From Nostoc sp. CENA543 (GTDB lineage Bacteria; Cyanobacteriota; Cyanobacteriia; Cyanobacteriales; Nostocaceae): a DNA stretch of 64,000 nucleotides. Made by a program: the position numbers and the translations under genes. This document shows positions 1 through 3,896 of this stretch, piece by piece; position 1 is the stretch's first letter, and each line of letters starts with the position of its first letter. The notes under the pieces are model-generated. The model saw nothing but the letters and a program-made list of their open reading frames with translations. It made no database searches and was not told the DNA's origin. The stretch covers positions 5,340,501 to 5,404,500 of the forward strand of contig NZ_CP023278.1 of the NCBI RefSeq assembly GCF_002896875.1, written 5' to 3'.

Positions 1-1342
1 ACGACAATTCATCATAACAATAGTTTAACTCTGCCCTTAACCGTTCAACTTTCTTCTTAATTGGAGGGTCTTTCCCTTCCTGGGCTTTGGCATACATTTT
101 AGCAAAGTTGCCCTTCATAGCTTGCTGAAATACCTTAATAAAAATAAGATACTGCTTGTCTTCTTCACTATTCTCTGCCATTATTATGAATCCTTCGCGG
201 TTGAAAAATAGCTGGTTAAATAAATATCCTTGTGAATCATCTATCACCAATTTTTCCCAAAAATTAGACCACCAATGGATTCCTTTCACTAAATTATCAG
301 CAATCAGGGAGCGAATCGGATTCACTTTAATAAAAATTTGCTTGGGTTGAATCTTCTGATAATTAGTTGGAAAATATTTTTGAATCTGTTGATAAGTGAT
401 TAAAGTATTTTTATCGATTTTAATTTCTTCTATACTCATCAATGTTCTTTGACGAGAATCTTTATTCATTTTTTCATATAACCAAACTTGACAAGCTTGA
501 TAGTAGTCACCTTGAGGCTGAATATCGTCTAAGCTGTAATAAAGTAATCCAGCTTCACCAAGACTACTAACATGAAGCTGTTTCGTTTCTAATTGCTGTA
601 ATCGCCATCTTCTTTGAGAAGCATCTTCAAAATCCTTGATTTCTGGAATCACCACCAAGTAGCGATGGGTTTTCTTTTCCTTCAAGTCTTCTGATGGAAT
701 ATGAAGTAAGCAATAATGACAAACTACTGGTACAAATAATAATGCTAAGGCGTATTCAGGCTTTTCTTCCAGTTTTGTAGTATTCTGCGTCCTAGCATGG
801 CGAACAATTCCCCCTAAATACAACCAACTGGTTATTTGAACATAATCCTGTCTGAGTTGTTGGGTATCTGTATCACATAACTTCTCTGCAAAGGTTTGAT
901 GTGCGTACCAAGTTAGGGATTTATATTGATACTCGACTTTTTTTTCTTCAAACGTTAGTTCAGTGTTAACTAGCTTTCCTGCTTGATAAAACTTATTAAG
1001 ACGCAGAAAAACAGCACACATTCCCTCATGAATCTGGATTTTTTGAGTTAAATCTATTGCATTATTGTCTAATCCTGCTAAATGAATTAAACCTGTATCA
1101 TCTAATTGAAAAGACTCATTAATTAACCAAGATATGGCGACAAAATCACTTCCTTGCCAGAATAATTCAATAGTATCAGCAGTTAAAGACCATGATATGT
1201 GTCCTCCCCGTTGACGAGATGAGGGATATTGCTTTTCTAATTGCTTTAAAGTCATATAAAGTCCCGTCATTCCCACCCTGTGTATTATTGTCGTATCCGC
1301 AGCACCGAGAGATAGAGAAATTTTGGGTTGGGTAGCAACCAT
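1..1342 (-). CDS. cas8: Cas8-like large subunit of a type I-B (MYXAN-type) Cascade, partial at the window edge
   Basis: An open minus-strand frame begins with ATG at 1342 (MVATQPKISLSLGAAD) and stays open to base 1, giving at least 447 codons without a stop, so the gene is cut by the window. The start lies 2 bases after the cas6 stop, which implies translational coupling in one operon read leftwards. I assign Cas8 (Cmx1/Cas8a1 class) from its position directly after a Cmx6-type Cas6, its size and its overall look; cas7 and cas5 would be expected just beyond the left edge. In the family, Cas8 is the Cascade large subunit and takes part in PAM recognition. In CAST systems it guides transposition rather than cleavage, because no Cas3 is present. 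The family call is inference from context; the reading frame itself is seen directly. Confidence 0.65.
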   Translation of the reverse strand, partial: MVATQPKISLSLGAADTTIIHRVGMTGLYMTLKQLEKQYPSSRQRGGHISWSLTADTIELFWQGSDFVAISWLINESFQLDDTGLIHLAGLDNNAIDLTQKIQIHEGMCAVFLRLNKFYQAGKLVNTELTFEEKKVEYQYKSLTWYAHQTFAEKLCDTDTQQLRQDYVQITSWLYLGGIVRHARTQNTTKLEEKPEYALALLFVPVVCHYCLLHIPSEDLKEKKTHRYLVVIPEIKDFEDASQRRWRLQQLETKQLHVSSLGEAGLLYYSLDDIQPQGDYYQACQVWLYEKMNKDSRQRTLMSIEEIKIDKNTLITYQQIQKYFPTNYQKIQPKQIFIKVNPIRSLIADNLVKGIHWWSNFWEKLVIDDSQGYLFNQLFFNREGFIIMAENSEEDKQYLIFIKVFQQAMKGNFAKMYAKAQEGKDPPIKKKVERLRAELNYCYDELS

Positions 1343-1344
1343 AA

Positions 1345-2007
1345 TCAGGTTTCCTCTTCTTCCTTGCTGCGAGTCGCTGGGACAAATATTCCACACATCA
1401 TCTTTCGTTTCCCACCAATCCCCTGTTCTTGCAAGGTTAAAGAATCTTCTGGGTTGAGTTCGCTGATTTTTACTCCAAATCCTCGAATTTCAAACTTTTT
1501 CTCTTCTTTATTGATGGTTAATTGTCTTTTTTGAGGCGTTCCATCTTGCCGGGTAAGTAATTCAATTTTCCCTTGTATTCCTATATTATCTAGTTGTCTT
1601 TGAACAGCTTCAATAAAGTTATTAGAGTCTTGAAAACCTTTAATTATCACTAATCTGGAATAGACACTTTCTGAAGAAATTAACGGTTTGTAGTCGGGAA
1701 TATCTAGTTGATAAGAATTTTGACCTATGTGAAAAGCTTGACCCGCTAAATAAGGATAAATTAAAGGAATTTGTTGATGATTAATCCGAATTTTTAGACG
1801 AGATTGAGCAGTTAGTTCAAGCAAATTGTTCCTAGTCGGAATTCCAGTAATTGGATGAATTCCAATAGATTTTAGTTCGTGAAGGCTAGGACAAATCCTG
1901 GACAAAGCACTATAGACAGCATAACCATTATCAAGAGGAATCGGTGCGCCTCTAAGTTTAAAGGTTAGGTCTAGGTAATATTCACTGTTTATAGCTGTGG
2001 CTATCAC
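1345..2007 (-). CDS. cas6: CRISPR-associated endoribonuclease Cas6 (Cmx6 type)
   Basis: The product is 220 residues and starts with GTG at 2007. The N-terminus (YLDLTFKLRGAPIPLDNGYA, then ALSRICPSLHE and IGIHPITG) matches the Cas6/Cmx6 family of type I-MYXAN (I-B) systems as I know it. A later IKGF segment near residue 120 fits the second ferredoxin-like half. Cas6 cuts the pre-crRNA within the repeats and stays bound to the 3' handle as part of Cascade. The gene heads a leftward operon with cas8 2 bases downstream and is divergent from the tniQ/tnsD-like gene at 2287. The C-terminus is strongly charged (a KEEEET tail). No CRISPR array is visible in the window; it would lie to the left. Confidence 0.8.
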   Translation of the reverse strand: MIATAINSEYYLDLTFKLRGAPIPLDNGYAVYSALSRICPSLHELKSIGIHPITGIPTRNNLLELTAQSRLKIRINHQQIPLIYPYLAGQAFHIGQNSYQLDIPDYKPLISSESVYSRLVIIKGFQDSNNFIEAVQRQLDNIGIQGKIELLTRQDGTPQKRQLTINKEEKKFEIRGFGVKISELNPEDSLTLQEQGIGGKRKMMCGIFVPATRSKEEEET

Positions 2008-2120
2008 GGTTAAGAATTTTTAGAAAATTTGATACTAAAGTTTGAAATAATTCCAATATTTTAAGTAAGTCGGTGAGAATAAACCTAACTATATAACAGA
2101 TTGTAAAATAGGTATAACCC

Positions 2121-2160
2121 TTGCGATTGCTTCATTCTACTTCGTTTCATTCGCAATGAC
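2121..2160. repeat. Dispersed-type imperfect palindrome in the cas6/tniQ spacer
   Basis: The 279-base divergent spacer between cas6 and the tniQ-like gene is A+T-rich, apart from this segment bounded by TTGCGA and its complement TCGCAA. It resembles short interspersed palindromes common in cyanobacterial intergenic DNA. No promoter could be assigned with confidence in the spacer. Confidence 0.35.
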
Positions 2161-3663: not shown

Positions 3664-3715
3664 ACTTTCAGTACGAATGGAAATGGTTGATAATTCACAT
3701 TGATTTTTTCAAAAT

Positions 3716-3791
3716 TTTTCAGGCATGATTTTGCCGTTACTGTTTTCAAGCATAGCTTTGCCGTTGCGGCAAAATCAAACTTTAAATCACA
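3716..3791. mobile_element. Candidate terminus of the Tn7-like/CAST element with two TnsB-site-like repeats
   Basis: Two 23-bp direct repeats lie at 3716-3738 and 3743-3765 and match at 19 of 23 positions (core TTTTCARGCAT, then TTTGCCGTT), offset by 27 bp. The same block holds a perfect 10-bp inverted repeat, GATTTTGCCG at 3727-3736 with its complement at 3767-3776. Read on the minus strand, a TGT at 3791-3789 lies just outside the repeats, and Tn7-like ends start with TGT. That would put the junction about 31 bp from the end of the tRNA-Val gene. The repeats are seen directly; their role as TnsB sites and the exact end are inference, because the other end is outside the window. Confidence 0.5.
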
Positions 3792-3822
3792 CGATGATAA
3801 ATAATCAATCACTGAAAAAATA

Positions 3823-3896
3823 TGGACGTAACTGGATTCGAACCAGTGACCTCTACGATGTCAACGTAGCGCTCTAACCAACTGAGCTATACGTCC
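3823..3896 (-). tRNA. trnV-GAC: tRNA-Val (anticodon GAC)
   Basis: The minus strand folds as a 74-nt cloverleaf. The acceptor stem GGACGTA pairs with TACGTCC followed by discriminator A. The anticodon stem CTACG/CGTAG holds the loop TTGACAT (anticodon GAC, valine), and the T arm contains TTCGAAT. CCA is not encoded. The 3' end faces the tniQ-like gene and candidate transposon end, so this gene is the likely attachment site recognised by a TnsD-type protein. Confidence 0.95.

Follow-up and report, generated by a model that had tools for sequence, protein, structure and literature searches.

Among CRISPR-associated transposons (CASTs; CRISPR, clustered regularly interspaced short palindromic repeats), the type I-B2 elements have a fused TnsAB and a tRNA-targeting TnsD, according to one source on this group (PMC11406308). 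The same source indicates that elements close to one another by TnsAB carry different guide systems, that TniQ partners have been exchanged, and that insight into the co-option of guide systems is to be expected from these elements. The stretch analysed here, referred to as the window, comprises 64,000 nucleotides of the 7.2-Mb genome of Nostoc sp. CENA543 (C1:5340501-5404500); positions without a prefix are counted from its first base, and L004 positions refer to the stretch to its left. Very probably, the window opens within a type I-B2 CAST that is complete at 24.3 kb, of which it holds the right-hand portion, and that lies 31 bp past a tRNA-Val(GAC) gene, at a site that is empty in a sister genome. 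Homology suggests that the element combines TnsD homing with an RNA-guided route, and its TniQ and its Cascade and array recur at 88–94% amino acid identity in one same-genus element (in genome G339) with a distant core and another tRNA home.

How transposons acquire CRISPR guide systems is an open question, and the window element and the G339 element together offer a concrete case of exchange. A first-pass annotation, made from the sequence of the window, had proposed that one end of a type I-B CAST is parked beside tRNA-Val. Features that it had not anticipated are the missing target-site duplication, a probable relic of a V-K-type transposon end in the gap next to the tRNA, and the mismatch between guide cassette and transposase core.

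Anatomy and attachment site of the 24.3-kb element

Extension of the sequence leftward within the same genome bore out the proposal: cas7, cas5, a CRISPR array, tnsAB, tnsC and a second tniQ are all present, and the element is complete, its right end being 31 bp from the tRNA. It spans C1:5319954-5344291 (24,338 bp), ends at window position 3791, and reads from left to right as left end, tnsAB, tnsC, small tniQ, cargo, array, cas5-cas7-cas8-cas6, tnsD and right end, with all four cas genes on the minus strand. The tnsAB, tnsC and small tniQ genes lie at C1:5320174-5325040. TnsAB is a single fusion of 920 residues, with a TnsA-like N-terminal domain (PF08722) above the cut-off and an rve domain (PF00665) just below it, and its residues 6-862 align to PDB chain 9bw1_M. 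TnsC (374 residues) is an AAA+ ATPase (PF13401/PF05621) that matches the TnsC chain 8fcu_Q (E 1.1e-69), while the small TniQ (329 residues) matches the TniQ chain 8fcu_P. The other TniQ-family protein is the 458-residue TnsD, whose gene lies 18.7 kb to the right of the small tniQ.

A type I-B Cascade set of cas5, cas6, cas7 and cas8 is present by both profile and PDB matches, with the Cas proteins matching type I-B, I-MYXAN or general Cas models and none of type I-D. In the window, cas8 (1..1396, minus strand; whole gene C1:5340307-5341896, its 3′ part left of the window) encodes 529 residues that match TIGR03485 (E 7.9e-77), the PADLOC Cas8a/Cas8b models, and the PDB Cas8 chain 8fcj_I with 1044 bits over 508 residues. 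Met406, at window position 181, is a putative internal cas11 start (1..181, minus strand) from which Cas11 may be translated; the stretch of Cas8 that aligns with the PDB Cas11 chain 8fcj_J covers residues 406-526. The adjoining cas6 (1345..2007, minus strand) encodes 220 residues (PF09559, E 6.8e-68; TIGR02807; PADLOC Cas6b2, 353 bits), and 198 of 219 aligned residues (90.4%) are identical to chain 8fcj_B. The first-pass annotation had described a Cas6 gene coupled to a Cas8-like gene, and these gene calls were right, but the span that it had set aside for profile searches, 1-2007, is that of two minus-strand genes, cas8 and cas6.

Divergent from these genes is tnsD (2287..3663, plus strand), the large TniQ-family gene, with matches to PF06527 (E 3.2e-16) and PADLOC TniQ_IB (E 1.6e-138) and, as had been read from the letters, its translation contains CPIC, CPHC and CSQC. 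Among solved structures it is closest to the TnsD of PDB 8v32/9bw1 (8v32_J, E 3.3e-117), and the closest named carriers found for this TnsD are Anabaena subtropica FACHB-260 (93%), Nostoc sp. NMS9 (92%) and Cyanocohniella sp. LLY (91%). The attachment site, an intact tRNA-Val(GAC) gene (3823..3896, minus strand; ARAGORN), turns its 3′ end towards the element, again as described at first pass.

Among the cargo are the R, M and S genes of type I restriction, a further N6-methylase gene, and a gene pair for a PtuA-like ATPase and an HNH-type protein. In the restriction R subunit (L004:10363-13011), a carboxypeptidase regulatory-like domain (PF13620, residues 605-683) separates the helicase part from the EcoEI_R_C part. 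This helicase also bears on the notion that a stand-alone type I-B CRISPR-Cas locus lies by chance near a TniQ gene, since it gives weak Cas3b matches (best E 0.0015) that would add to a complete type I-B Cascade and array. The protein is, however, the R subunit of a type I restriction enzyme (PADLOC REase_I, E 3.3e-150; PF04851, PF08463), and no cas1, cas2 or cas3 was found among the element's open reading frames that were scanned, a set that did not include L004:2261-2524, overlapping antisense frames or the rest of the genome. Considering also that the cas genes lie between tns genes and within a pair of matched ends, the anatomy contradicts a stand-alone locus, which is extremely improbable.

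The ends of the element are well marked. A terminal TnsB-site-like repeat at the right end (3766..3786, minus strand; TTTAAAGTTTGATTTTGCCGC) yielded four matches in a genome-wide pattern search of the 21-mer allowing up to 3 mismatches, all of them at the two element ends, and both inverted ends keep such repeated, matched motifs, to which TnsB would presumably bind. The right terminus ACA (3789..3791) mirrors the left-end TGT at C1:5319954 (TGTGATTTAAAGTTTGATTTTGCCGC versus TGTAATTTAAAGTTTGGTTTTGCCGC). All 13 same-genus genomes searched have gltB, as well as some of the sequence that lies to the right of the tRNA. In the closest one (G341; gltB 97% identical), gltB, Uma2 and tRNA-Val are contiguous and the element is absent, so the neighbourhood is not an identical one in all relatives and the predicted empty site exists in one. 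Homology to G341 extends to the very last base outside the left terminus and picks up again from base 8 of the right flank, in support of the limits given. A chromosomal rearrangement across the element had been suggested by genomes G058 and G331, in which the gltB and tRNA-Val sides lie far apart (by positions on single contigs); this idea was dropped because G341 has both sides adjacent without the element.

The spacing from the tRNA is a recurrent one. At 13 lined-up occupied tRNA-Val sites, where the element's end was set by hand at its TGT, the gap from the tRNA 3′ end to the element is 30–33 bp; two of these sites, in G317 and G338, are occupied by a mini-element of 53 bp. In G338, a member of the same genus, the mini-element is palindromic (TGTGACTTTACCC...GGGTAAAGTCACA), and after it come a single I-B2-type CRISPR repeat and a sequence like an array trailer; the whole (L078:3058-3210) is apparently all that remains of a decayed I-B2 CAST. 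In other genomes, the distal end of the G349 element is worn and a matching duplication was not seen there, the flanks of the G075 element (GCATG / GCATC) agree at 4 of 5 positions, and the distal end of the G191 element was not found. Relatives of TnsD (E <= 1e-60) occur in 30 of 291 genomes of the order, and of the 29 loci fetched in addition to that of the window, 15 carry a tRNA gene in the fetched flanks (9 Val, 3 Ala, 2 Leu and 1 Thr).

The description of CyCAST places its insertions around 30–33 nt downstream of tRNA-Leu, with TnsD serving homing and TniQ the RNA-guided route (PMC10293859), and by analogy the same division of labour may hold in the window element. TnsD, the presumed homing factor, would bind the tRNA-Val gene and steer TnsAB and TnsC to an insertion point about 31 bp past it. 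The small TniQ, together with Cascade (Cas5, Cas6, Cas7, Cas8 and the internal Cas11) and the single-spacer array, could then provide a second, RNA-guided route, probably aimed at mobile DNA. Both assignments are drawn from homology. The array (L004:13370-13477) lies inside the element and has two identical 36-nt repeats around one 36-nt spacer. Among same-genus genomes its repeat occurs in 3 of 13, namely the window's genome, G338 and G339. The possibility that the array is shared with another system in the genome was ruled out by the repeat's occurrence (up to 3 mismatches) in this array only.

Several observations weigh against a complete element with both routes. The spacer has no match in its own genome besides the array itself (up to 3 mismatches) and none in phages or plasmids, and two overlapping 24-nt parts of it have none in viral contigs, these searches being confined to sequences other than the relatives' genomes; thus, the RNA-guided route is without target support. 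Fourteen of the 29 TnsD loci show no tRNA, some of them being cut by contig ends. Moreover, G341 has 80 bp where the window genome keeps 7 bp outside the element, and the 5-bp flanks differ (TTTAA on the left, CGATG on the right), so that the target-site duplication expected of a recent, undisturbed Tn7-type insertion is not present. Because the flanks differ, a small left-side deletion after insertion is likely and must be assumed.

The one-spacer array without an identified target and the missing duplication would also suit a CAST that looks complete but is dead and immobile, its Cas genes being fossils. Such decay is unlikely, given that all eight tns and cas reading frames are open, that matched repeats are kept at both ends, and that the five cassette genes have ratios of nonsynonymous to synonymous substitution (dN/dS) of 0.14–0.24 against their counterparts in G339.

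The guide cassette and its transposase cores

Comparison with solved structures brings out a mosaic. The PDB entries 8fcj, 8fcu, 8v32 and 9bw1 are all taken here to be of PmcCAST; the PDB record for Cas5 names Nostoc sp. 'Peltigera membranacea cyanobiont' 210A. Relative to these, Cas6 and Cas5 of the window element are 90.4% and 91.5% (194/212) identical, whereas TnsD is 44.8% identical (194/433). The same split is seen in alignment scores, which amount to 2.05–2.09 bits per residue for Cas8 (1044/508), Cas7 (672/322) and TniQ (675/329) but to 0.90 for TnsAB (769/857) and 0.65 for TnsC (238/368). High scores for TniQ and Cascade beside low ones for TnsAB and TnsC mean that, as judged from sequence, PmcCAST is nearly the same guide module on a different transposase core.

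A second case was found within the genus. Genome G339 has what appears to be a single 34.0-kb element (C1:2756099-2790113), 32 bp from a tRNA-Ala(GGC) gene, whose ends (TGCGACAACAACNNTAAGTTGTCCT) are alike at 23 of 25 bp. These ends start with TGC in place of the usual TGT and the 5-bp flanks mismatch, so its limits rest on the inverted match. The two elements were compared by protein identity, DNA block alignment and dN/dS per gene. Their cassette proteins are close (Cas6 89.1%, Cas8 89.8%, Cas7 88.5%, Cas5 93.9% and TniQ 89.4% identical), in contrast to the core (TnsAB 39.6%, TnsC 31.0% and TnsD 39.5%), and they differ in terminal sequence and in tRNA home (Ala versus Val). The long shared DNA blocks are two, one running from the array to cas6 (4119 bp, 91.6%) and one covering tniQ (1020 bp, 91.7%). 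The remaining DNA matches are all short: array repeats aligned a second time, weak resemblances among members of the tnsD/tniQ family, the tRNA, and a single scrap of tnsD.

This scrap, 146 bp of window-type tnsD (80.8%, E 5e-33), adjoins cas6 in G339 in the same divergent orientation as in the window, and its presence there indicates that the G339 cassette derived from a window-type element. The five cassette genes of G339 are intact, with dS of 0.21–0.34 against the window element. Since gltB is 82% identical between the two hosts, below the 91.6% of the cassette, the comparison points to horizontal transfer of the cassette between them. The exchange in G339 is thus sharply bounded, has left a molecular scar and can be roughly dated (dS about 0.2). 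The converse arrangement occurs in G349, where the core is shared (TnsAB 85.8%, TnsC 87.2%) and the cassette is more distant (Cas8 67.1%, TniQ 76.6%).

Taken together, guide systems appear to be swapped between transposition engines as ready-made kits. A fairly probable interpretation is that a portable kit of TniQ, array and Cascade moves among Tn7-like transposons whose TnsAB, TnsC and TnsD are very different and which also differ in their ends and tRNA homes. The window-type lineage would be the donor to G339, with the tnsD scrap marking the transfer, and TniQ would travel with Cascade and not with TnsC; to this is added the piling up of CAST types at one tRNA, with I-B2 elements homing onto worn V-K-type ends. 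If TniQ travels with Cascade, one TniQ-Cascade must recruit TnsC proteins that are only ~31% identical, and the prediction is that a single TniQ-Cascade works with very different TnsC proteins.

Two points count against module exchange: the cassette in G339 may be passive cargo, and the comparison is pairwise, not from trees. The cas/tniQ block of G339 could conceivably be a nested dead CAST, carried as cargo and unused by the other transposase core, and this has somewhat less than an even chance. Its order of tniQ, cargo, array, cas genes and tnsD scrap mirrors that of the window element in inverted form, and the end motif of the window element gives one isolated weak match there (up to 4 substitutions). 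The intact state of the five genes and their low dN/dS nevertheless tell against a dead cargo, with the proviso that part of the divergence may predate transfer. Moreover, PmcCAST has a cassette that is similarly close, and a single PDB entry, 8ff4, appears for the Cascade, the TniQ and the TnsC of the PmcCAST system, yet the TnsC of that system reaches only the 0.65 bits per residue given above against that of the window element.

V-K-type ends at tRNA-Val

The 31-bp gap between the element and the tRNA (3792..3822, minus strand; CAGTGATTGATTATTTATCATCG) holds what is very probably a worn V-K-type transposon end, with clearer copies in relatives. V-K-type ends, of the forms TGTACAGTGAC... and TGTACATTCGC..., lie ~180–270 bp before tnsB genes that match the V-K profile. 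The second form (TGTACATTCGC) was seen in G035, G305, G220 and G320, and G035 is a V-K element by its TnsB (1149.8 bits), TnsC (496.8 bits) and Cas12k (1177.6 bits). The first form (TGTACAGTGAC), the type at the window's tRNA, is linked to V-K elements only by the tnsB of G210 (1001 bits, one internal stop codon) and by a likeness to the left end of ShCAST, and no Cas12k was seen beside it. Across the 388 genomes of the order, V-K-type ends lie within 25 bp of tRNA-Val in 16, with no control match, and I-B2-type ends lie 20–45 bp from tRNA-Val in 5; both end types occur in 2 (G111, G342).

The significance of the match was estimated with shuffles that keep base composition but not dinucleotides. 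The score of the worn motif in the window gap was reached by 2 of 2000 shuffles and 0 of 1000 (32 nt) in two tests with five reference ends, and by 1 of 3000 in a third with four. The reference dropped from the third, the G128 end (L128), lies ~15 kb from its tnsB and is probably the opposite end of its element; the repeat without it, over seven gaps, had the same outcome. The empty site of G341 has the motif too (0/2000 and 0/3000), and for this reason the relic is probably older than the insertion of the window element. This suggests that the window element inserted onto the remains of a different Tn7-like transposon.

The motif is by no means universal at such sites. It is present in 7 and absent in 6 of the 13 lined-up occupied sites, a biased rate, since two of the 7 (G191 and G317) owe their place in the set to the motif, and G338 and G293 came from a flank search. 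A set chosen independently of the motif (15 TnsD loci, G339 and the window) gave 3 clear cases in 17 (G111, G339 and the window), 1 marginal case (L017, 1/1000) and 13 negatives. These 13 gaps, and the worn state of the match in the window genome, where the TGTA start is gone, would be in keeping with ordinary AT-rich DNA that holds no transposon relic. Still, the rarity of such scores among shuffles, the motif in the empty site of G341, near-intact V-K-type ends at the corresponding position in L034, L035 and L036, and the occurrence there of the other sequence form in G111 make ordinary DNA quite improbable. A V-K-type relic remains the preferred explanation.

In G111, the opposite end of the V-K type is found past the distal end of the Tn7-like element, as if this element were nested in a V-K-type remnant. 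The element itself (within C1:2270000-2300000; L072 and L073) is 25 kb long, sits at tRNA-Val and has a TnsAB 55% identical to that of the window, two TniQ-family genes, and no matches to the window Cas proteins.

Live V-K elements were sought beside such ends, and inspection by eye of up to 20 kb in G240, G197, G393, G419, G229 and G316 revealed no V-K set of tnsB, tnsC and cas12k reading frames. A V-K TnsB profile search (E <= 1e-60), which covered genomes other than G197, G393 and G419, had no match in G240 or G229 and, in G316, one match elsewhere. In G322, a tnsB pseudogene (C767:28003-29268) with six stops in its V-K profile match follows tRNA-Val at a distance of ~360 bp and has the same orientation, which points to use of this site by V-K-type elements. 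G201 has a V-K-profile TnsB ~8 kb from its tRNA-Val match. A mini-element of ~680 bp, ~8–687 bp past tRNA-Val in G240 (L101), has V-K-type ends on both sides and a CTTTCAACCCACCC stretch that resembles the tail of a V-K CRISPR repeat. The window's own genome also encodes a V-K-profile TnsB (C1:3731703-3733235, L124; 733 bits) followed by a TniB-like ATPase gene, and a TGTACAGCGAC motif ~360 bp upstream points away from it. The V-K-type end under an I-B2 element suggests that competing transposon types use one chromosomal parking place.

Comparison with known systems

Neither one TniQ-Cascade on very different cores together with a scar, nor I-B2 elements on V-K-type ends, was met in the CAST literature consulted; coverage of that literature was partial, so no priority is claimed for either. 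The type V-K CASTs also settle beside tRNA genes (PMC11406308), and a worn V-K-type end lies at the window's tRNA-Val. They differ in having a Cas12k effector, no TnsA and guide-RNA homing, and only an end is present here. The type I-D CASTs, CyCAST and McCAST, belong to the same Tn7-like subfamily with fused TnsAB and share a tRNA-homing TnsD (PMC10293859, PMC11406308). Their Cascade is of type I-D, whereas that of the window element is of type I-B, and profile scans of the Cas proteins found no type I-D Cascade with Cas10d. PmcCAST (Tn7744, type I-B2) has in common with the window element the fused TnsAB, TnsC, TniQ plus TnsD, type I-B Cascade and tRNA homing. The window element belongs with PmcCAST among the type I-B2 CRISPR-associated Tn7-like transposons, a kind already known and no new class.

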